From Gammaproteobacteria bacterium (GTDB lineage Bacteria; Pseudomonadota; Gammaproteobacteria; Pseudomonadales; Azotimanducaceae), in the NCBI GenBank assembly GCA_028821405.1, contig JAPPGK010000013.1, forward strand, positions 1 to 54,156: 54,156 bases of DNA, read 5' to 3'. Numbering within the stretch: the first letter of the stretch is position 1; each line of letters starts with the position of its first letter. The translations under genes and the position numbers were made by a program. Shown piece by piece: positions 7,679 to 33,022 of the stretch. The notes under the pieces are model-generated. The model ran no database searches, was not told the origin of the DNA, and worked only from the letters and a program-made list of their open reading frames with translations.

Positions 7679-8745
7679 ACCGTGCGGGTCACGCGGTAGA
7701 TTCTGCCGCCCTGATCGTCGGAGATGAGCAAGGTACCGTCCCGCGCCATGAGGACGTCCGCCGGGCGACCCGACGCCTTCTCCCCTTCGAGCCAGACATC
7801 GACGAACGGCGAGTAGACGGGTTCACCCGCCGCGAATCGGATGACGCTGACTCGGTAGCCCACCTTGGAGGATCGATTCCAGGAGCCGTGTTCGGCAATG
7901 AAGAGCGCGTTCGAATAATCCGGACCGAACAGTTCCCCGGTGTAGAAACCCATGCCGATCGCCGCGGCGTGGGCTTGTATCTCGACCTCGGGGGGGACGT
8001 AGTCCGCCGGGTCGTGTCCTTCCCCGTATTCGGGGTCGAGGATGGCCGTGCCGTGGATGTGCGGGTAGCCGTAGTGGGCGCCCGCCTTGGTGACCCGGTT
8101 CACCTCCTCCGGTGGGATGTCGTCGCCCATCATGTCCCGACCGTTGTCCGTGAACCAAAGTTCGTTGGTCTCGGGGTGCCATGCCAGGCCGACGGAGTTG
8201 CGTACGCCGTGGGCGTACACGGTCGCCTCGCCCGTGCGGGGATCCATGCGCAGGATGCTCGCAAAGCGTTCATCGGTGGACTTGCAGATGTTGCACGGCG
8301 CACCGACGGGTACGTACAGGTAGCCGTCGGGACCCACGGACAGGTATTTCCAGCCGTGGTGGTACTTGTCCGGCAGGGTATCGGTGATGACTTCCGGCGC
8401 CGGCGACTCCCGGAAGTTCGTCGCGATGTCGGGATAGCGGAGGATCCGGTCGAGGGCGGCGACATAGAGGTCTTCCCCGAACAACGCCAGCCCGCTCGGC
8501 ATGGTCAGCCCCTTGGCGAAGGTGACGACCTCCGGGGCGCCTTCGGCGGACGGGACCACGGCATAGAGGCGTCCGGCCCGTCGGGTTCCCACGAACAAGA
8601 TACCGGACTCCGCTTCGGCCATCTGGCGAGCGTTGGGCACCTCGTCGGTGTAGATCGACATGGAGAATCCGGGTGAAATCCCTTCACCGGCCGCGGGGGT
8701 TGCCAGGGCGAGTGCCAGCACGGAGACTAGGGAAACCCACTTCAT
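7672..8745 (-). CDS. PQQ-dependent sugar dehydrogenase family protein (periplasmic)
   Basis: Six-bladed beta-propeller of the soluble glucose/sorbosone dehydrogenase family; enzymes of this family oxidise sugars with PQQ. 357 residues. The ATG at 8745 gives a clear Sec signal peptide (MKWVSLVSVLALALA, cleavage near TPAAGEG). The frame extends 37 codons upstream, but that segment is hydrophilic and lacks a signal. Family landmarks: GPDGYLYVPVGAPCN, RMDPRTGE, YAHGVRNSVGLAWHP, WFTDNGRD and HYGYPH, with the Cys residues of CNIC conserved among sorbosone-dehydrogenase-like members. The true substrate cannot be read from sequence. Its 3' end runs straight into the 88-bp repeat. Confidence 0.85.
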   Translation of the reverse strand: MKWVSLVSVLALALATPAAGEGISPGFSMSIYTDEVPNARQMAEAESGILFVGTRRAGRLYAVVPSAEGAPEVVTFAKGLTMPSGLALFGEDLYVAALDRILRYPDIATNFRESPAPEVITDTLPDKYHHGWKYLSVGPDGYLYVPVGAPCNICKSTDERFASILRMDPRTGEATVYAHGVRNSVGLAWHPETNELWFTDNGRDMMGDDIPPEEVNRVTKAGAHYGYPHIHGTAILDPEYGEGHDPADYVPPEVEIQAHAAAIGMGFYTGELFGPDYSNALFIAEHGSWNRSSKVGYRVSVIRFAAGEPVYSPFVDVWLEGEKASGRPADVLMARDGTLLISDDQGGRIYRVTRTVP

Positions 8746-8911
8746 TCCGGCAGTGTAGCAGCCCGCCTGCGCATTTGGGCCAGTGCCCCGGTCGTTGTGC
8801 GACATGCACCCGACATTCTGTGCGAGATTGACGCACTTTGCCGGTCGTGTCTCCACGCGACCCGAAGAGTTGGGTTACTGTCTCGGTGAGTTTGCGTAGC
8901 CGAGGCCGATT

Positions 8912-11020
8912 TTGTCAGACGCCGTCGCACCCGTATTGACCGACGAATTGAAGGCGTCGATCCAACGTGCCTATTCGACCTGGCTCGGTAGTCGCGGGTT
9001 CAGGGCGCGTCGCGGTCAGCGACAGATGATCGCGGACATCGCCCGGGGCTTGACCGAGGACCGTCGGTTGTGCGTGGTAGAAGCGGGTACGGGAACGGGA
9101 AAGACTGCAGCCTATTGCCTGGCCGCCATTCCCATCGCCAAGGCCCTGGACAAGCGGGTGGTCATTACCACCGCGACCGTGGCACTGCAGGAGCAGGTGG
9201 CACTGCGCGACCTCCCCGACCTCAAGCGCAACGCTGGCCTTGACTTCGCGTTCGCCATCGCCAAGGGCCGCAGTCGGTACGTCTGTCTAGAGCGCCTCGA
9301 GGACCGCCTCGCCTACGACCCGGAAACCGCGCGCCTGTTCGGGCCGCCGGAGGCCGAGGATCTCGAGATCTACCGCCGCCTCGAGTCGTCCTTCGTCACC
9401 GGCACCTGGGATGGCGATCTGGACAACTGGCCGGACGGTGTTCCCTCGAAGGCCTGGACCCCCGTTACGAATGATCGAGCCGGCTGTCATGGCCGACGCT
9501 GCAAACACTACCACCAGTGCCCGGTGTTCCGGGCCCGATCCGACGTATCCGACGCCAACGTGGTGGTGGCGAACCATGACCTCGTGCTGACGGACCTTCG
9601 GATCGGCGGTGGCGTGGTGCTGCCGGATCCCGCCGATACCATCTACGTGATCGACGAAGCCCATCACTTGCCGGAAAAGACCCGCGATCAGTTCACGGCC
9701 CGCGCCGCCCTGCGTGGCTGTACCGACTGGCTGAAGCAGATCGCGTCGAGCATCGACACCATGGCAAGGCGTTTCGACCAACCACGCGAGGTGCAGCGGG
9801 CACGGGAACGGCTGGTGGACGAGGCGGGCGGTGCCGAGGGTCTGCTCGCAGATGTGGGGACCATCGTGCGCGACCTGCCTTTCGAGTCACGGGATGCGGA
9901 CAAGGAGACGCACCGTTTCCCGTTGGGTGAGATACCGCCACCGCTGGCCGAGGCGTCTGCGCCGCTAGGCAAGTCGTTCGGTGGCGTCGCGGCGATTCTG
10001 GATGAGTTGGGGAACGATCTCGAGGAAGTCATCGAAGGCAATCTCGATTGGCCGAATCCCCAGCTTGCGGAGTCCTGGCGTCCGACCATCGGCCAGCTGG
10101 CCAGCCGGGCTGCGAGCGCGGAGGCCTTGTTCAACGATTACGGGAGTGGTTCATTGGCATCCGCCGCGCGGTGGGCGTCCAGGGGACTGGATGAACGCCG
10201 CGAAGAAATCGAACTCACCAGCGCACCGCTCATGCCCGGTGAGATCCTGAACGAGAAGCTCTGGAGCAATTGCCACGGCGCGCTTGCCACGTCCGCCACC
10301 CTCTGCGCGCTGGGGACGTTCGCGCGCTTCCGGGAAAGCACCGGCCTCGTCGACTCGGCGCGCGAGTCGCGCATCCCGAGCCCGTTCGACTTCCCGCGCG
10401 TCGCCACGTTGTCGGTACCGCCAATGCGTGCCGAACCGCCCGACGCCCAGGGTCATACCGAGGAGATCGCTTCGCTGTTGCCGGGGCTTCTGCGTTTGGA
10501 GCGAAGTGCACTGGTCCTGTTCACGTCCTGGCGGCAGTTCAATGCCGTGGTGGAGTCGCTGCCGGACGAACTTCGCTCGAACTGCCGCCTGCAGGGCGAG
10601 GCATCCAAGCAACGCCTGATAAGCGAACACACATCAGCGATCGACGAGGGGCACGATAGCTACCTCTTCGGCTTGGCGAGCTTTGCGGAGGGTGTGGACC
10701 TGCCCGGCGCGTACTGCCGGCACGTGATCCTTGCCAGAATCCCCTTCGCCGTTCCCGACAATCCCGTCGACCAAGCGGTCGCCGAGTGGCTCGAGAGCCA
10801 GGGCCGCAATCCGTTCATGGAACTCTCGCTGCCGGATGCCTCCCTGCGCCTCGTTCAAGCCAGCGGCCGGCTGATCCGCAACGAGACCGACCAGGGACGG
10901 ATCACCCTGCTCGACCGACGCATCCTGACCCGACGCTACGGCGAGTCGCTCCTGGCTGCGCTCCCGCCGTACCGGTTCGACTTTCCCGCGCTGGCCCCGG
11001 GTCGCCGACGCACGCCTTAG
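8912..11020 (+). CDS. dinG: ATP-dependent DNA helicase DinG
   Basis: Superfamily 2, XPD-like 5'-3' helicase that unwinds R-loops and damaged or G-quadruplex DNA; 702 residues. Walker A EAGTGTGKT (residues 58-65), DEAH box VIDEAHH at about 246. The iron-sulfur cluster cysteines are spread between YVCLERL and CHGRRCKHYHQCP. C-terminal helicase motifs include FAEGVDLPG and QASGRLIRNETDQGR. It starts at TTG 8912. The stop is followed by TAGCGCCCCAA, the same 11 bases that begin the 88-bp repeat at 48 kb, but the match stops there. Intact. Confidence 0.94.
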   Translation: MSDAVAPVLTDELKASIQRAYSTWLGSRGFRARRGQRQMIADIARGLTEDRRLCVVEAGTGTGKTAAYCLAAIPIAKALDKRVVITTATVALQEQVALRDLPDLKRNAGLDFAFAIAKGRSRYVCLERLEDRLAYDPETARLFGPPEAEDLEIYRRLESSFVTGTWDGDLDNWPDGVPSKAWTPVTNDRAGCHGRRCKHYHQCPVFRARSDVSDANVVVANHDLVLTDLRIGGGVVLPDPADTIYVIDEAHHLPEKTRDQFTARAALRGCTDWLKQIASSIDTMARRFDQPREVQRARERLVDEAGGAEGLLADVGTIVRDLPFESRDADKETHRFPLGEIPPPLAEASAPLGKSFGGVAAILDELGNDLEEVIEGNLDWPNPQLAESWRPTIGQLASRAASAEALFNDYGSGSLASAARWASRGLDERREEIELTSAPLMPGEILNEKLWSNCHGALATSATLCALGTFARFRESTGLVDSARESRIPSPFDFPRVATLSVPPMRAEPPDAQGHTEEIASLLPGLLRLERSALVLFTSWRQFNAVVESLPDELRSNCRLQGEASKQRLISEHTSAIDEGHDSYLFGLASFAEGVDLPGAYCRHVILARIPFAVPDNPVDQAVAEWLESQGRNPFMELSLPDASLRLVQASGRLIRNETDQGRITLLDRRILTRRYGESLLAALPPYRFDFPALAPGRRRTP

Positions 11021-11078
11021 CGCCCCAAGGCCGGGACGGCGGCGTCCGAATACGCGCCTTCGCCGCTCGCTGTACGTC

Positions 11079-11684
11079 CTAACACGCCGCGGAACGCTTC
11101 GTGACCTTCGCCAGCCAGTAGTCCATGCTCGTATACCGGCCGCCCCCGGTGAAGAACAGCGACAACAGCATGAGGAAATACGTCACCGCGAACTCGATCC
11201 CGCCGTTGAGAATCGTCACCGAACCGCGGGCGGTCAGCCACTTGTAGTCGCCGTGCTCCTTCAAGATGGAAATGATCTCCGCCTTGCGCGGGACCGCTTC
11301 CATGACGCGGTCGTTGGCCAACCAACTCGACGCGTCCGAGAGGACCAACCAGCCGTTCTGCCAATGGACCGCGAAGGCGGCGACCAGCATGGTGATCATT
11401 AATGGCACGGCCACGAGCCGGGTCGCCAAGCCGGCGACGAGCATCACGCCGCCCCCAAGTTCGGCGGCGGTGGCGAGGAACGCCATGACTTCTGGCAGCG
11501 GCATGCCCAAGGTGTTGCCGAACCACGAAACCGTTCCGCTGAAACCGGTTGCCTTCACCCAGCCGGACTGGATCATCACCGGCGCGAGGAACAGCCGCAG
11601 CAAGAGCGGCGGGACCCCGTCGAATGGCTTCAGCTTCTCGAAGGTCGTGTCGTAGATTCGGTTGTAGCTGGCGATGGGATTCAT
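11079..11684 (-). CDS. DoxX family membrane protein
   Basis: Small integral membrane protein, 201 residues, of the DoxX/DoxD type. Four hydrophobic segments: LLLRLFLAPVMIQSGW, VMAFLATAAELGGGVMLVAG, LVAVPLMITMLVAAFAVHW, and VTYFLMLLSLFF near the C-terminus. The RLFLAPVMIQSGWVK region and the ELGGG motif after a conserved membrane helix are typical. Family members are linked to membrane redox or quinone reactions, but no activity can be assigned here. ATG 11684 is preceded by a GGGAGA ribosome site. Convergent with dinG; divergent from the next gene with a 117-base gap for promoters. Confidence 0.85.
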   Translation of the reverse strand: MNPIASYNRIYDTTFEKLKPFDGVPPLLLRLFLAPVMIQSGWVKATGFSGTVSWFGNTLGMPLPEVMAFLATAAELGGGVMLVAGLATRLVAVPLMITMLVAAFAVHWQNGWLVLSDASSWLANDRVMEAVPRKAEIISILKEHGDYKWLTARGSVTILNGGIEFAVTYFLMLLSLFFTGGGRYTSMDYWLAKVTKRSAAC

Positions 11685-11801
11685 GGTTTCTCCCGTTGAG
11701 CGGTGATTCTTTTGACCGTGCGCGGACCCGAACGGTCACATGGGCTCGACGTGCCGGACGCAACCCGGTAGAACGGCGGCTTCGCACTCGATGGTAACGT
11801 C

Positions 11802-21504: not shown

Positions 21505-25620
<4,116 letters not shown>

Positions 25621-25676
25621 GGTCAATCGTCTCTCCCTGGTTACGCTACGGCCAAGTAACTGGGTATTCATCCAGT

Positions 25677-25868: not shown

Positions 25869-26132
25869 TTTTGGCGCCATTGCAACCAATTTTTGCTGTG
25901 TGTAACGACGGTGTGGCGATGAGTAAATCGTGTGTCTATCCTGTGCGCAGACCGCCGCTGTAGGTACCCGGGAGTCCACACATTCTCCACAGGTTTTTCC
26001 ACGCGCGGCCTGATCTGTGCAGAAACCGGTGTCCAAGCTGTTGATAAGGCCGTGGCAAGGCGGGGCGGTTCGGTTGATAACGCCGACCGTTAGCGGCTAA
26101 TGTCGGCGATAGGATCGGGCGACGAGGAAAAA
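25869..26132. promoter_or_regulatory. nrdA-glpK divergent region with DnaA-box-like words
   Basis: The second half of the 512-base gap between nrdA and the glycerol kinase fusion. It contains words one or two bases away from DnaA boxes: TTCTCCACA (25983), TTTTCCACG (25995), TGTTGATAA (26039) and GGTTGATAA (26072). DnaA control of nrd promoters is known in Escherichia coli, so this may be regulatory. No AT-rich unwinding region or dnaA/dnaN genes are present, so an origin is unlikely. No coding signal was seen. Confidence 0.3.
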
Positions 26133-28139
26133 GTGGCGCACCTGCTCGCCATCGACCAGGGAACATCCAGTTCGCGTGCAATCGTATTCGACGCCCGCGG
26201 TGGCGTCGTGGCCACGGGTCAGCGTTCTTTCGATCCGTTCTACCCCGACGACGGCTGGGTCGAGCAGGACCCGGAAGCGCTTTGGCAGTCCACGCTCTGT
26301 GCCGCCCGAGACGCCATCGCGGCGAGCCGGGTTGCGCCGTCGGCCATCGCTGCCATCGGGATCGCCAATCAACGCGAAACGACGCTGGTCTGGGATGCCG
26401 AGACGGGGGAACCGTTCGGCAATGCCATCGTCTGGCAGGACCGTCGAACGGCGGAGCGCTGCGACCGTGCCCGCCAGGAGGGCATGGAGCGAGAACTCAT
26501 CGAGATCACGGGGCTCCTGGTCGATCCCTATTTTTCGAGCACCAAGCTCGAATGGCTGCTTGAGGCTGAAGGTCTGCTCGCAAAGGCCAAGGCGGGCAAG
26601 ATCCGTTTCGGGACCGTCGACAGCTTCCTGATCTGGCGGCTGACCAAGGGCGCAACCCACGCCACGGACGCCACCAACGCTTCGCGGACCCAGCTCTTCG
26701 ACATCGGCGAGCAGCTTTGGAGCGAACCTGCGCTCGACTATTTCGGCGTGCCCCCACCGGTACTGCCCGAAGTCCGGGACTGCGTCGACGAGTTCGGGAT
26801 CGCCGACCCGGGGTGGTTCGGTGCGGCGATCCCGATTACGGGCGTCGCCGGCGACCAGCAGGCGGCCCTGGTCGGCCAGGGGTGTTTTGCACCGGGATTG
26901 ACCAAGAGCACCTACGGCACGGGGTGTTTCCTGATCGCCAATACGGGTGATCAACGCGTACACTCGAAAGCACGGTTGTTGACGACCGTCGGCTACCGGG
27001 TCGCCGGCAAGACCTGCTATGCAATGGAGGGTAGCATCTTCAACGCGGGCGTCGCCATCAAGTGGCTGCGCGACAAACTGGGGCTGATCGAGAACGCAGC
27101 CCAGACGCAGGCCGCCGCGCTTCGAATCGACGGCGACACGGGCGGCGTCTACGTCGTGCCTGCGTTCACCGGGCTGGGTGCGCCGCACTGGCGCCCGGAC
27201 GCGCGCGGTCTGGTCGCCGGTCTCACGTTGGATACCGGTGCCGACGAGATCGTCACGGCGACGCTCAAGAGTGTTGCCTTCCAGACGGCCGATCTGTTGG
27301 GAGCGGCGGACACCGACGGCGTGTCGGTCAAGGCGTTGCGGGTGGACGGCGGCATGGCGGTCAACGATTGGTTCTGCCAGTTCCTGGCCGATGTCACCGA
27401 TCTCGAGGTGGCACGCCCGGTGAACACCGAAACCACGGCTGTTGGCGCCGGATTGCTGTCTGCGGTCGGTGCCGGCCTTTACCCGGACCTGGAGTCCGCC
27501 GCGGAGGCTTGGCACCTCGATCGTCCCGAGCGCACTTTCAAGCCGCGAGCGCCGCCGTCCGTCCGATCGGCGTGGCTGGGCGGTTGGCACGCCGCCGTGC
27601 AGCGGGCGCTCTCCGTACCGGCCCGCGACCCGTTGACCGGTCTGCTCGACCGGCGGGGGTTCATGAGCGAAGCCGGTCGCCGGCTGCAACAGGCCGAACG
27701 GCGAGACGGCTCGCTGGCCCTGCTTTTCATCGATCTCGACCGCTTCAAGCAGATCAACGACGGGTTCGGTCACGCCGTCGGCGATGCGGTGCTGCACGCC
27801 TTCGCTCGGGTTGCCTTGAGGGGCGTTCGCGACGACGACGTGGTCGGGCGCATCGGCGGCGAGGAATTCGTGGTCCTGCTCGACGACACGTCGCTCGATG
27901 GCGCCAAGCGGGTGGCGGAACGGGTCCGGACCGAGTTCCGGAAGGTGACCGTGGACGGCTTGCCGAGCAGCTTTGCCGTCACCCTTTCCGTCGGGATTGC
28001 GGGTAGCGCGCACGGCGAGAAACTGGAGGCCTTCATGGCCCGGGCGGACGCGGCGCTCTACGAAGCCAAGGCGGCGGGTCGTGACTGTGTGCGCGTGGAC
28101 CGGGCGCCGGTTTCGCGAGGAGCCAGCCGTGGTCTGTAG
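26133..28139 (+). CDS. glpK: Glycerol kinase fused to a GGDEF diguanylate cyclase domain
   Basis: 668 residues in one open frame. Residues 1-490 are a full glycerol kinase (glycerol + ATP to glycerol 3-phosphate): IDQGTSSSR, NQRETT, WQDRR, TGVAGDQQAALVGQ, STYGTGCF and the late VDGGMAVND ATP-site motif. From about residue 498 (RDPLTGLLDRRGF) a complete GGDEF domain follows: metal-binding FIDLDRFKQIND, active-site GGEEF at 575-579 and inhibitory I-site RDDD at 566-569. All residues needed for c-di-GMP synthesis appear present. GTG 26133 follows GAGGAA and gives the usual GlpK start; ATG 26100 is an alternative. No glpF, glpD or glpR gene is nearby. Overlaps the next gene by 11 bases. Confidence 0.93.
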   Translation: MAHLLAIDQGTSSSRAIVFDARGGVVATGQRSFDPFYPDDGWVEQDPEALWQSTLCAARDAIAASRVAPSAIAAIGIANQRETTLVWDAETGEPFGNAIVWQDRRTAERCDRARQEGMERELIEITGLLVDPYFSSTKLEWLLEAEGLLAKAKAGKIRFGTVDSFLIWRLTKGATHATDATNASRTQLFDIGEQLWSEPALDYFGVPPPVLPEVRDCVDEFGIADPGWFGAAIPITGVAGDQQAALVGQGCFAPGLTKSTYGTGCFLIANTGDQRVHSKARLLTTVGYRVAGKTCYAMEGSIFNAGVAIKWLRDKLGLIENAAQTQAAALRIDGDTGGVYVVPAFTGLGAPHWRPDARGLVAGLTLDTGADEIVTATLKSVAFQTADLLGAADTDGVSVKALRVDGGMAVNDWFCQFLADVTDLEVARPVNTETTAVGAGLLSAVGAGLYPDLESAAEAWHLDRPERTFKPRAPPSVRSAWLGGWHAAVQRALSVPARDPLTGLLDRRGFMSEAGRRLQQAERRDGSLALLFIDLDRFKQINDGFGHAVGDAVLHAFARVALRGVRDDDVVGRIGGEEFVVLLDDTSLDGAKRVAERVRTEFRKVTVDGLPSSFAVTLSVGIAGSAHGEKLEAFMARADAALYEAKAAGRDCVRVDRAPVSRGASRGL

Positions 28140-30648
28140 AAACGTCCGCGGCGGGTTGACATTGGCGCGGCGATGCTGGGCGGGTCTGGTCGGGTGCTTG
28201 GCGACCAGTGCGCTGATGATCGACGCGCATGCCGATAGCCTAGATGAGCTTGAGCCGCGCAGTGCAAGGGAAGCAACCCCGCCGAGTTCGTGGCAAACCC
28301 GGAACGACTACACCCGCGTGGCGGTGTCGCGTTCGATCGTGCTGCCGGCGCTCACCGACGTCGAGGCGAGAACCGGGTCGGGCGTCGGGGAGCCCGGGCA
28401 ACCGACGCGGATTGGCGTCGGCCGGCAGTTGCCGGCTCTGGACCGGGGTGACTTGGCGTCGACGTTGACCTGGACGGTACTGGCGAACGGGGGTCGTGTG
28501 GCCGCTTTCAGCGTGCGCTCGCCGGGTGCGGGAGGGGTCCGCGTGGCTGTCCAGGCGACTCTTCCGCCCGGGGCGGCCCTACGGTTCTTCGCCCCTGGCG
28601 ATCCACAACGCCGCTATCCGGTGTTCAAGCAGAACGACTTCACGGGGGCGCGCCTCGCCGCGGGGCAGCCGTCGGTGGACCGGGTGCATACACGCTGGTC
28701 GCCGACAATCCCGGGCGACACGGTGGGGATCGAGATCGAAATCGCGGCGTCGACCGGCGAGAGCGAGGTGTCGCTCCGTATCGTCGGCGTGTCCCACATC
28801 CATCGCGCTTCGGCGAAGACGTCGCGGTCCGGAAATGCGACTCCCAAGAGCGCCACCGCGTGCGAGCCGATCCACGTGGCCTGTAGGAGCCTGTCCACCT
28901 GCCCGAACAGCGCCGTGGCGCAGTTGTCGTTTACCGAGGCGGGCGGAGACTCGTATGTCTGTACGGGCACGGCGGTCAATTCCGAACGGTCGCGGGACGA
29001 CAACCTGGACGCACCCTACCTCCTGACGGCGGCGCACTGCATTGACACGCAAGCGCTCGCCGACACCGTCGAGAGCCGCTGGAACTATGAACACGAGAAC
29101 TGTGACGCCTCGGATCCGGACCCGGACTTCACGGCGCTGCACGGCGGGGCGGAGCTCGTAGTGGGCGACCCCGACTCGGATGGGTCGCTGCTCCGGCTCC
29201 GGGACGCGTTGCCGAATAGCGCCTGCCTCGCCGGGTGGAATAGCGATGGCGGGTGGGCGGGAGGCACCGACGTGACTTCGCTGCATCACCCGGAAGGCGA
29301 CCCCAAGCAGTTCGCCGGTGGCAGTATCGCTGCCACGACCATCATCGAGGAAGTGGACGCGATCAGGGTGACGTGGACGGACGGGTTGACCACTGGCGGT
29401 AGCAGCGGCGCGGGACTGTTCACGACGGTGGACGACAGCGACGTGCTGATCGGCACGCTGTACGGCGGGCCGGCCTGCACGGTCGCGCAGCCGATCGACT
29501 ACTACGGGCGTTTCGACCGTTTCTATGACAATCACGCCGGTGTGCATCTCCAACACACGGATCCCCCGGCGGCCGACGACCACGGCGATACCGTCGCGAC
29601 CGCGACGGTCGTGATCGCAGGGTCGGAAACAGCAGGAGGCATCCTGAGCGGGGCGGATGCCGACGTCTTCCGGATCGTGGTCCTGCGCCGTGGCACGTTG
29701 ACGGTATATACGACGGGGCAAGTGGATACGGTCGGTCGTTTGAAACGCGAGGACGGCAGCACTGTCGTGTTCGACGACGACGCCGACTTCCCGATCGACG
29801 CGAATTTCAGGATCGAAGCCGATGTCGTGCGCGGCATCTACTATGTGAAGGTCACCGGCTACGACGAGACGGCGATCGGCACCTATCAACTGCATGTCGA
29901 GTTCACGGCGGCGGAGTCCAAGATCCTCGTGCCGTTCTTTCTCGCCGCGTCCGCCTACGAGAGCGAAGGCCGCCAGGGATTCGTGCGCATCGTCAACCAT
30001 TCCGACCGAGCGGGCGATGTGCGCATCATGGCGACCGACGACGCGGGAACAAGCCCCGATGCCGTCACCCTCGCCCTCGAGCCCTCCGAGGCACAAGCGC
30101 TCAACTCGATGGATCTGGAGGAAGGCAACGCCGACAAGGGCCTGTCTGCGGGTACCGGCGTCGGAACGGGTGACTGGCGCTTGGAGTTCGACTCGGATCT
30201 CGAGATCGAGGTGGCAGCATATGTCCGAACCACGGATGGCTTCCTCACCGCCGTGCACGACACGGTCCCGATCGACCCACTCACCGGGGCCCACTACGTG
30301 TCCGTGTTCAATCCCGCCAGCAACACGGAACAACGCAGCCGGCTACGCCTGATCAATCCCGATACCGAAAACGCCGTCGACGTCTCGATCACGGCCCGCG
30401 ACGAGGCGGGAGAGGCGGGGGAGTCTGCGGTCGAACTGCAAGTGGAAGCCGGTTCCGCTCGAACTCTCTCCGCATCGGACCTCGAGGACGGCGGCGAGGG
30501 CCTGACCGGCGCATTCGGCGACGGCACGGGCAAGTGGCGGCTGTTCGTGGAGTCCGCCGACGAGATCCACGTCGTCAACTTGCTCTACAGCGAGACCGGG
30601 GACCTATCGAACCTCTCGACACCCGGGAAGGACAACTTCAACCCGTAG
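28129..30648 (+). CDS. Secreted trypsin-like (lysyl-endopeptidase-type) serine protease
   Basis: 839 residues. GTG 28129 overlaps the end of the glycerol kinase fusion and follows GAGGAG six bases away, suggesting coupled translation. A signal peptide (LARRCWAGLVGCLATSALM, cleaved after AHA) is followed by a pro-region. The S1-type catalytic domain has His303 in LLTAAHC, Asp within the GDPDSDGSLLRL segment and Ser426 in TGGSSGAG; the layout resembles Achromobacter protease I. Next come a pre-peptidase C-terminal (PPC-like) domain (about 480-590) and two related modules of about 115 residues, each ending in a DWRLEF or KWRLFV strand. Likely exported; substrate unknown. Confidence 0.85.
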   Translation: MVCRNVRGGLTLARRCWAGLVGCLATSALMIDAHADSLDELEPRSAREATPPSSWQTRNDYTRVAVSRSIVLPALTDVEARTGSGVGEPGQPTRIGVGRQLPALDRGDLASTLTWTVLANGGRVAAFSVRSPGAGGVRVAVQATLPPGAALRFFAPGDPQRRYPVFKQNDFTGARLAAGQPSVDRVHTRWSPTIPGDTVGIEIEIAASTGESEVSLRIVGVSHIHRASAKTSRSGNATPKSATACEPIHVACRSLSTCPNSAVAQLSFTEAGGDSYVCTGTAVNSERSRDDNLDAPYLLTAAHCIDTQALADTVESRWNYEHENCDASDPDPDFTALHGGAELVVGDPDSDGSLLRLRDALPNSACLAGWNSDGGWAGGTDVTSLHHPEGDPKQFAGGSIAATTIIEEVDAIRVTWTDGLTTGGSSGAGLFTTVDDSDVLIGTLYGGPACTVAQPIDYYGRFDRFYDNHAGVHLQHTDPPAADDHGDTVATATVVIAGSETAGGILSGADADVFRIVVLRRGTLTVYTTGQVDTVGRLKREDGSTVVFDDDADFPIDANFRIEADVVRGIYYVKVTGYDETAIGTYQLHVEFTAAESKILVPFFLAASAYESEGRQGFVRIVNHSDRAGDVRIMATDDAGTSPDAVTLALEPSEAQALNSMDLEEGNADKGLSAGTGVGTGDWRLEFDSDLEIEVAAYVRTTDGFLTAVHDTVPIDPLTGAHYVSVFNPASNTEQRSRLRLINPDTENAVDVSITARDEAGEAGESAVELQVEAGSARTLSASDLEDGGEGLTGAFGDGTGKWRLFVESADEIHVVNLLYSETGDLSNLSTPGKDNFNP

Positions 30649-30769: not shown

Positions 30770-31690
30770 TCAGCGCCCGTGCAACAACAGGAACTCGAGG
30801 AGCGCCTTTTGAGAGTGAAGGCGGTTGCCTGCCTCGACCCATGCCACCGAGCGGGGATCGTCGAGCATCTCGGCACTGACCTCCTCGCCCCGGTGTGCGG
30901 GCAGGCAGTGCATGAAGAGGGCGCCGGGCTTGGCGTGGTCCATCAACGTCGGTGTCACCTGGTAGCCGTTGAATGCCGCGCGTCGATCGGCCTCCTCGCC
31001 CTCGTGGCCCATTGACGACCAGACATCGGTGACCACGAGGTCGGCGCCGGCCACCGCTTGGGCCGGAGAATCGGCGAGTTCCACGTTCGCTGCCGGCAAG
31101 ATCCCCTGGTCGGGCTGATGGCCTCTCGGCGTCGCGACCCTCAATTGGAAGCCGAACAACCCCGCGGCGCGGACATAGGAGTTGCACATGTTGTGGCCGT
31201 CGCCGACGAACGCCACCGTCTTGCCGGCGACGTCCCCGCGGTACTCGACAAAGGTCTGAATGTCGGCGAGCAACTGGCAGGGATGGAAACGGCCCGTCAT
31301 GCCGTTGATGACCGGTACCGACGCGGCAGCGGCGAAGCTCGCCACCATGTCGTGGTCGAACGTACGGATCATAATGGCGTCGACCATCTCGGAGAGCACC
31401 CGGGCGGTATCCTCCACGGGTTCTCCACGGCCCAGGTGCAAGTCGCTGGGGTTTAGGAACAGCGCGTGGCCGCCAAGTTGGTGCATTCCGGCCTCGAAGG
31501 AGACCCGCGTGCGCGTGGAACTCAACTCGAAGATCATGGCGAGGGTGCGGCCCTTCAGCGGCTCATAGACCTGACCCTGTCGCCACATTCGCTTGAGCAC
31601 GGCGCTGCGTGCCACGACGCGGTGCAACTCGTCGGCGGTCAGGTCCGGCAGCGTCAGGAAATGCCGGGGCGTCGTGGACGTTTGAGCCAC
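30770..31690 (-). CDS. argF: Ornithine carbamoyltransferase ArgF
   Basis: Makes citrulline from ornithine and carbamoyl phosphate in arginine synthesis; 306 residues. Carbamoyl-phosphate site STRTR, ornithine/catalytic motifs HPCQLLAD and [11 protein letters not shown]. The start is GTG 31690, with GGGAGG upstream; the frame is open 22 codons further without family similarity. It lies 129 bases downstream of argD on the same strand, giving an argD-argF unit; argG is on the other strand 5 kb away. Confidence 0.96.
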
Positions 31691-31819
31691 GGGATCCTCC
31701 CTTGTTGCTCCCCGCCCCTCGTTGGTTCGGCGATACCTAGCGCGTCTCGCGAGCACGCGAGCCGTTCAAGAGCGATACGTTGTTCCAAAATGCAACCCAC
31801 GTGTAAACATCAAGGTCGC

Positions 31820-33022
31820 TCAAGGAGTCTGGCCGGGCATCGCGTCGATCAGGTCGGCCACGTGATCCACCATCGCGTCGGCCTCGTCGTCGCTCATGGT
31901 GAGCGGCGGTAGGAGACGTATGACCGTGTCGGCGGCGACGTTGATCAGCAAGCCGGCGTCGACGGCGGCGCCCACGAGGTCCGTGCAGGGTTCGTTGAGT
32001 TCCACGGCGACCAACAGACCCTTGCCGCGAATCTCCTTGACGCGGTTGTTGCCGGCCAGGCGGTCTCGGAACCTCGCGAGCATGCGCTCGCCGAGCTCGG
32101 CGGCCCGGTCCATGACGCCGCCTTCGGTCAACTCGTCGACCACCACGTTGGCGGCAGCGCAGGCGAGGAAATTCCCCCCGAACGTCGATCCGTGGGTACC
32201 GGCGAGGAGCATCTTGGCGGCTTCGCCCCGCGCCAGGCAGGCACCGATCGGTACGCCGTTGCCGAGTCCCTTTGCGGTGGCCACGACGTCGGGCATGACT
32301 GAAGTGTGTTGGAAGGCGAAGTACTTGCCCGTTCGACCGTTGCCCGTCTGCACCTCGTCGAGCATCAGGAGCCAGTCGTGCCGGTCGCAGATTCCGCGCA
32401 GCGCCTCGAGGTAGCCGTCGTCCGGAATGACGATGCCGCCTTCGCCGAGGATGGGCTCGACCAGCACCGCCACCACGTTCTTGTTGTTGGCGGCGATCTT
32501 CTCCACCGACTCGACGTCGTTGTAGGGAGCGCGCACGAAGCCCGCGAGCAGCGGTTCGAATCCGGCCTGGACCTTGCGGTTGCCCGTGGCGGTCAGCGTC
32601 GCCATGGTACGGCCGTGGAAGCTGCCGTCGGCAACCACGATATGGGGCATGGCGCAGTTGCGGGAGTGGCCGTAGAGGCGCGCGATCTTGATGGTCGCCT
32701 CGTTGGCCTCCGCCCCCGAATTGCAGAAGAACACGTTGTCCATCCCCGAGATCTCGCAGAGACGGCTCGCTAGGCGCTCCTGTCCGGGGATGCGGTACAG
32801 GTTGGAGGTGTGCAGCAGGGTCGACGCTTGCCGTGCAATGGCGTCGGCCACCTTGGGATGCGCGTGGCCCAGGCCGCATACCGCAATGCCGGTCAGCCCA
32901 TCCAAATACCGCTTGCCGTTGCTGTCGTAGACATAGCTGCCCTCGCCGCGCACGAAGGCCACCGGAATGCGCGCGTATGTGGGCATTACCGACTGGGGAA
33001 TTTCCTCGTAGACGTCCGCCAT
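31820..33022 (-). CDS. argD: Acetylornithine aminotransferase ArgD
   Basis: PLP-dependent class III aminotransferase, 400 residues, for the acetylornithine step of arginine synthesis (it may also serve in lysine synthesis). Seen: the CNSGAEANEATIK phosphate-binding region, SFHGRTMATL, Asp in LLMLDEVQTGNGRTG, PLP Lys in ATAKGLGNG, and GTHGSTFGGN. ATG 33022 has a strong TAGGAGG ribosome site. Intact. Confidence 0.95.
   Translation of the reverse strand: MADVYEEIPQSVMPTYARIPVAFVRGEGSYVYDSNGKRYLDGLTGIAVCGLGHAHPKVADAIARQASTLLHTSNLYRIPGQERLASRLCEISGMDNVFFCNSGAEANEATIKIARLYGHSRNCAMPHIVVADGSFHGRTMATLTATGNRKVQAGFEPLLAGFVRAPYNDVESVEKIAANNKNVVAVLVEPILGEGGIVIPDDGYLEALRGICDRHDWLLMLDEVQTGNGRTGKYFAFQHTSVMPDVVATAKGLGNGVPIGACLARGEAAKMLLAGTHGSTFGGNFLACAAANVVVDELTEGGVMDRAAELGERMLARFRDRLAGNNRVKEIRGKGLLVAVELNEPCTDLVGAAVDAGLLINVAADTVIRLLPPLTMSDDEADAMVDHVADLIDAMPGQTP

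Follow-up and report, generated by a model that had tools for sequence, protein, structure and literature searches.

The closest described systems in which a GGDEF protein is tied to glycerol genes are Rrp1 of Borrelia and GdpS of the staphylococci, each reported as the one GGDEF protein of its genome and as having an effect on the glp genes. According to the accessible part of its source, Rrp1 is the only cyclase in Borrelia and controls the glp operon (PMC3128128). In the gdpS mutant of Staphylococcus epidermidis, glpF, glpK and glpD were raised; the available text further states that GdpS showed no cyclase activity, and its genomes are said to be without EAL, HD-GYP and PilZ domains (PMC9714401). 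As far as these excerpts go, the link runs via gene expression in both cases and neither protein is joined to the glycerol kinase GlpK. The present analysis concerns a 54,156-nucleotide stretch of a gammaproteobacterial genome of the family Azotimanducaceae (contig JAPPGK010000013.1 of assembly GCA_028821405.1), which is referred to as a whole as the window. It carries a gene in which a GlpK and a GGDEF domain, the catalytic domain of diguanylate cyclases, form one protein. Both parts belong to known families; what is new here is their joining, the history that can be read from neighbouring genes and the lone position of the fusion in its genome. Neither such a fusion nor a pair of adjacent glpK and diguanylate cyclase (dgc) genes was described among the literature matches listed, which left subscription journals and preprints largely uncovered. 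Glycerol was reported to alter biofilm phenotypes of Pseudomonas in a paper whose accessible part mentions cyclic di-guanosine monophosphate (c-di-GMP) once (PMC11036800), and the further literature match PMC2405808 has the two terms sought in unrelated places.

A glycerol kinase joined in frame to a GGDEF domain

One uninterrupted frame on the + strand encodes GlpK and then GGDEF, without an internal stop, and ends at the stop codon 28137-28139. The start that the initial annotation had given, GTG 26133, appears to be the likelier one because it was kept as a start codon in all seven fused loci compared, and the in-frame alternative, ATG 26100, is part of a conserved stretch that loses the frame in locus L003. 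Residue numbers are counted from ATG 26100. The features of the protein are the following:

26133..27611, + strand: GlpK part, residues 12-504 (TIGR01311, match to 4e1j, start kept in 7/7 fused loci)
27612..27626, + strand: junction, residues 505-509 (structure model and alignment of six fused proteins)
27627..28100, + strand: GGDEF domain, residues 510-667 (PF00990; nearest solved relatives are cyclases, including PleD)
27726..27746, + strand: metal-site motif FIDLDRF, residues 543-549 (both Asp and the final Phe invariant in 7/7 fused sequences)
27828..27839, + strand: inhibitory site (I-site) RxxD, here RDDD, residues 577-580 (RDDD in six sequences, REVD in one, L006; R and D invariant)
27855..27869, + strand: active-site signature GGEEF, residues 586-590 (invariant in 7/7 fused sequences)

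The claim that a complete GlpK continues in frame into a complete GGDEF domain with GGEEF, FIDLDRF and RDDD stood, with both family models above their cut-offs. The first half reached 603.1 bits against the GlpK equivalog model TIGR01311 of NCBIfam (cut-off 590.35) over residues 15-504, and its closest solved structure was the glycerol kinase 4e1j (E 1.1e-165). It has the same full-length FGGY kinase fold and sequence as described GlpK proteins (TIGR01311; 4e1j, 1bo5) and differs from them in the added C-terminal GGDEF domain and, compared to the E. coli enzyme, in the missing GGKGGTR loop. The segments NQRETT, DPYFSSTK and GDQQAAL, which we take to be substrate and catalytic motifs of GlpK, are present, aligned with 4e1j and E. 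coli GlpK and were conserved in the six aligned fused proteins. The GGKGGTR loop, presumably the one that binds fructose bisphosphate in E. coli, had no counterpart in the alignment of the window protein. Its loss is not special because the Sinorhizobium enzyme 4e1j is also without the loop, yet has no GGDEF domain; judging from these sequences, the loop is not a defining feature of all GlpK proteins.

The second half matched the Pfam GGDEF family PF00990 with 144.7 bits (cut-off 23.8) over residues 509-662. Its nearest solved relatives were cyclases, including 7e6g and PleD (1w25), which match it in sequence and share the GGEEF signature, the metal-site Asp and the RxxD I-site, an optional cyclase feature that stands five residues ahead of GGEEF. 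All 22 catalytic, substrate and I-site residues, which had been picked beforehand on the model of PleD-type cyclases, were invariant in the seven fused sequences, compared with 98 of the 161 GGDEF columns overall (hypergeometric p 6e-6, to be read with the fact that such residues are conserved in the GGDEF family at large anyway). The domain had been called apparently active, and its active site and I-site do look competent. It differs from described cyclases in its N-terminal partner, which is a metabolic enzyme and not a receiver, PAS/GAF or membrane sensor; GGDEF input is usually read by dedicated sensor domains, and in this protein it is the committing enzyme of glycerol use that the GGDEF domain is joined to.

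An AlphaFold2 model of the single chain, for which the input was the window sequence and the sequences of related loci only, gave a confident two-domain structure (mean predicted local distance difference test score 93.5, predicted template modelling score 0.84). In this model the last GlpK helix spans residues 486-504 and the GGDEF domain begins within about five residues of its end. When the whole-fusion model was used as the query in Foldseek against the PDB, all 50 matches listed were glycerol kinases, among them entries titled domain motion and inactive tetramer.

When 84,980 species genomes were scanned, 80 loci were kept, six of which (L003-L008) match the fusion over both halves. Within the window's genus, the fusion was found in seven of the 16 genomes, i.e., the window's own (G000), G451, G466, G483, G510, G522 and G537; the latter six are, by their frame lengths, probably the same genomes as L003-L008, and the count is therefore seven species-level genomes and not thirteen. 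When 390 genomes of the order were surveyed, the window's own was the only match, of those listed, to span the GGDEF half. Each of the genomes in question is a draft in many contigs, and statements of absence rest on a completeness of 74-100% over the 16 genus genomes (90-100% in the seven fused ones). The named relatives are metagenome bins, several of them presumably of sponge origin, judging by their isolate names. In one fused genome, G537, a second, unfused GlpK lies on a different contig (L010, G537:C571:43672-45171); it is close to that of L009/G532 and is likely a contamination of the bin.

Both domains lie in open frame in the window and in L003, L004, L005, L006 and L007. The initial annotation had named a stop or frameshift near codon 490 on resequencing as a point against the fusion, and the open frame across both domains in these six loci rules out a one-off sequencing error; in L008, a run of N falls within the kinase half and the C-terminal part is open. 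GGDEF-domain identity among the fused genomes was 68-88%. The ratio of nonsynonymous to synonymous substitution rates (dN/dS; NG86, 15 pairs of six sequences) ranged from 0.102 to 0.160 in the kinase and from 0.088 to 0.189 in the GGDEF part. Since the values are similar in both parts, selection holds kinase and GGDEF alike, and the purifying selection on both halves (0.09-0.19 overall) supports the two-domain protein read from the window.

Gene pairs in relatives and the probable origin of the fusion

A separate GGDEF gene on the same strand directly downstream of glpK was found in 41 of 120 unfused genomes of the order, which were those whose GlpK scores high against the window and not a random draw, and in five of 24 families. 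The pair was present in 29 of the 62 genomes of the window's family (f1) and in 12 of the 58 outside it; the latter fell into four families (f22 1/1, f26 1/1, f39 5/6 and f43 5/5), with none in 19 others. The 120 exclude six glpK loci whose downstream sequence was too short (L099, L143, L150, L208, L216 and L226). L229, in which the downstream GGDEF match is split over two frames, was counted as not adjacent, as was the single genome that L011 and L198 represent, where a DUF1631-GGDEF-EAL gene follows glpK. Nine pair-bearing genomes of the window's family hold 10-25 GGDEF matches each, and, assuming several thousand genes per genome, a GGDEF gene would be expected as a chance neighbour of glpK in well under 1 in 100. 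The frequency of the pair thus points to a functional tie between glpK and the cyclase, as the initial annotation had suggested from the fusion alone. L168 (f22) and L180, L182 and L183 (f39) have glpK, dgc, argF (-) and argD (-) in this order, so that their pair occupies the slot of the fused gene in the window.

The stand-alone glpK-adjacent cyclases of f1, f22, f26, f39 and f43 group with the fused GGDEF domain and hold the same place downstream of glpK, but differ in being separate proteins with about 200 residues ahead of GGDEF. Their median length was 367 amino acids (range 257-436, with starts chosen by script). The N-terminal region appears by eye to hold several membrane helices, and no Pfam match was found for it in the two proteins scanned. 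In a careful tree, 43 glpK-adjacent cyclases formed one clade (99/97) and seven fused domains another (100/99), and the 34 paralogues lay outside the group that both make up together (97/91; 98% of 200 bootstrap trees). Of 122 rows, 84 entered this tree, after removal of 29 deep paralogues, four long-branch paralogues, four duplicates and L011. In the full tree made before it, the long-branch paralogue L330 fell inside the fused-plus-adjacent set, and L119-L122, labelled there as paralogues, proved to be glpK-adjacent themselves. Because the fused domains group with the glpK-adjacent cyclases and not with the paralogues, and dgc follows glpK in 41 of the 120 genomes, a glpK-dgc gene pair is the probable ancestor of the fusion, with the membrane-like N-terminal domain of the cyclase lost on the way. 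The chromosomes of the relatives would then show a likely earlier stage.

Some of the relatives have further genes at this place. Two tandem GGDEF genes follow glpK in L185, L186, L187 and L188 (f43) and in L193 (f26). A third gene with an open frame of about 1,300-1,450 amino acids stands after glpK-dgc in G279, G298, G402, G407, G412, G424, G450 and G544, where it was identified by place and open-frame length only. In L011, the gene directly after glpK (7793-11764) encodes a DUF1631-GGDEF-EAL protein with a weak PilZ match.

Proposed control between the two domains

Each of the seven fused genomes had a single PF00990 match, which was the fusion itself (control genomes were positive in 8 of 14 cases). 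The reading that we favour, to which we assign a probability of roughly 0.4, is that GlpK has taken the place of the sensor and gates the only cyclase detected in the genome, in a bifunctional protein that is kept by selection. An active glycerol kinase would here be joined by its last helix to a diguanylate cyclase domain that is competent in catalysis and can be inhibited by its product, after an ancestral glpK-dgc pair had lost the N-terminal membrane-like domain of the cyclase and the two genes had fused. Cyclases normally carry a signalling helix ahead of GGDEF, and the last kinase helix would enter the domain at this usual place. GlpK oligomerises, and it moves and assembles with its ligands; its oligomer, together with domain closure driven by glycerol and ATP, could have become the input and dimerisation module of the cyclase. 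As no other GGDEF and neither EAL nor HD-GYP was detected, the c-di-GMP level would be set by the state of GlpK, by GTP and by I-site feedback. With no recognised phosphodiesterase, the I-site would cap the product, which may be removed by dilution or by an unrecognised route. The computations show the fusion and its conservation, the intact motifs, the selection, the related dgc beside glpK and the sparse network; the two activities, how and in which direction they are coupled, and any receptor are what we infer from them. Rrp1, the only cyclase of Borrelia and a regulator of its glp operon, is a physiological precedent for this reading (PMC3128128). Since no other GGDEF was detected in these genomes, what is left of a c-di-GMP signalling system may be a single metabolic enzyme.

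A number of observations weigh against this reading. The fused GGDEF domains are sister to the adjacent-dgc clade and not nested inside it, and the six fused kinases, one clade in the GlpK tree (Shimodaira-Hasegawa-like approximate likelihood ratio test 90, not starred), stand among relatives that have no adjacent dgc; a direct precursor was therefore not seen. The structure model is of one chain and is silent on the dimer that a cyclase needs. PF00990 was absent from the other nine genus genomes, so that absence of the fusion in close relatives, which the initial annotation had named as a point against it, was found for nine of the 16, and the remaining seven keep it. Neither EAL (PF00563) nor HD-GYP (PF13487) was detected in any of the 16 genus genomes (controls positive in 6 and 4 of 14, respectively). 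One PilZ protein per genome was present in 12 of the 16, and the motifs RxxxR and [DN]xSxxG were absent in all of the eight of these 12 proteins that were read, which cover five of the six PilZ-bearing fused genomes; PilZ was accordingly dropped as a c-di-GMP receptor. MshEN-type proteins were found in all 16 genomes, and the c-di-GMP-binding motif RLGxx...LxxxLxxQ, as given in the accessible part of its source (PMC5013675), was absent in the 20 of 25 such proteins read. The best partial motif matched 8 of 11 positions in the unfused G435, and 4-5 of 11 were matched in the fused genomes. The MshEN scores (66-76 bits in the seven fused genomes, 28-60 in seven unfused ones and 72-74 in the unfused G435 and G527) had suggested a link of these ATPases to the fusion as receptors, which was dropped, the motif occurring in none of the 20. 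There is hence no recognised receptor among the PilZ and MshEN proteins read, other classes not having been searched. The absence of EAL and HD-GYP, of a second GGDEF and of a classical receptor motif would speak against a conventional c-di-GMP circuit. The c-di-GMP-I riboswitch RF01051 was found in none of the 16 genomes, yet it was also found in none of the control genomes and is therefore uninformative. Only the unfused G542 among the 16 genomes had a match to the C-terminal domain of GlpD (PF16901), which was thus found in none of the seven with the fusion; no search was aimed at GlpF or at glycerol-3-phosphate dehydrogenases of other kinds.

A close rival, which we regard as only somewhat less likely, reverses the direction of control. 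The GGDEF domain would be a built-in regulator of GlpK, in which GTP or self-made c-di-GMP bound at the I-site alters the assembly or activity of the kinase in place of fructose bisphosphate and EIIA-Glc. In such a case c-di-GMP need not leave the protein and no separate receptor is needed, which suits genomes in which other c-di-GMP machinery was not found, yet the GGDEF part is under purifying selection with its I-site intact. The missing GGKGGTR loop can be read in the same way, but that of Sinorhizobium 4e1j is missing without any GGDEF domain. A sole GGDEF protein that acts without c-di-GMP has a precedent in staphylococcal GdpS, as described in the available part of its source (PMC9714401). 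However, all catalytic residues are kept in the fusion, which pure regulation by binding does not require, and the glpK-adjacent cyclases of the relatives are separate proteins, so the older link between glpK and cyclase was not intramolecular. We therefore favour gating of the cyclase by GlpK over the reverse, on account of the intact catalytic site and of the history seen in the neighbouring genes.

A scenario that combines both directions is doubtful. The genus would have lost its other c-di-GMP machinery and some lineages would have welded one cyclase to GlpK, with mutual intramolecular regulation by c-di-GMP or GTP on one side and glycerol or ATP on the other, and with neither a phosphodiesterase nor a separate receptor. 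If true, c-di-GMP would be an intramolecular allosteric ligand of a central metabolic enzyme. It is also rather unlikely that the domains work independently in one polypeptide and that only stoichiometry and co-production matter. Each domain does score as a normal, complete member of its family and, because glpK and dgc adjoin in relatives, a simple fusion of co-transcribed genes would suffice.

A GGDEF half reduced to an inactive relic or scaffold and in the course of being lost, as in the nine genus members without GGDEF, is improbable: the lack of any phosphodiesterase found would fit, but the dN/dS of the domain and the invariance of the 22 key residues down to 68% domain identity argue otherwise. 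An artefact of assembly or frame, which draft genomes in many contigs might suggest, is very unlikely given seven separately assembled genomes that share one locus at 68-88% GGDEF-domain identity.

Since no second GGDEF was detected beside it, the fusion offers a minimal, testable setting in which to ask what irreducible job c-di-GMP has without a network and whether a metabolic enzyme can itself be the sensor. As far as the available parts of their sources go, Rrp1 and GdpS also tie a single GGDEF protein to glycerol genes, which makes glycerol a candidate shared theme, and three cases are no proof.

Neighbourhood of the fused locus

The genes around the fusion in the window are:

21505..25671, - strand: divergent upstream neighbour, nrdA-like, with an intein-like insert (from sequence; kept upstream of fused loci)
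28129..30648, + strand: lysyl-endopeptidase-like gene (exact start not certain; an 11-base overlap with the fusion if it is GTG 28129)
30770..31756, - strand: argF-like gene (its counterpart directly follows glpK-dgc in f22 and f39 relatives)
31820..33022, - strand: argD-like gene, near the argF-like gene

We take the gene at 21505..25671, by its sequence, to encode the large subunit of ribonucleotide reductase; the names argF-like and argD-like likewise come from the sequence. The locus is shared among the fused genomes. The nrdA-like gene lies divergently upstream in L003, L004, L006, L007 and L008, and the argF- and argD-like genes lie downstream in L004, L005, L006 and L007; the remaining contigs end too soon.

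The gene that directly follows the fusion had been described as an overlapping secreted protease gene. Its product (28132-30648) matched 9omd_A with an E-value of 1.2e-28, which makes it lysyl-endopeptidase-like, with a propeptide-like match as well (9omd chains A and I), and had no Pfam match. The protease-like nature of the gene was therefore upheld, whereas the overlap holds only if its start is GTG 28129. The gene was well matched in L004, L007 and L008 only, partly matched in L003 and L005 and not matched in L006. As it is not consistently kept beside the fusion, the secreted-protease or biofilm output that had been thought conceivable found no support.

The region between the nrdA-like gene and glpK (about 26035-26100) holds TTATCAAC-like copies, which we assume to be DnaA-box-like, and a block TTAGCGGCTAATGTC, largely common to the fused loci. 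These elements possibly serve the control of nrdA rather than that of the fusion. The insert of the nrdA-like protein covers approximately residues 477-831; the match skips it in L003, L007, L008 and L011 and spans it in L004, L009 and L010.
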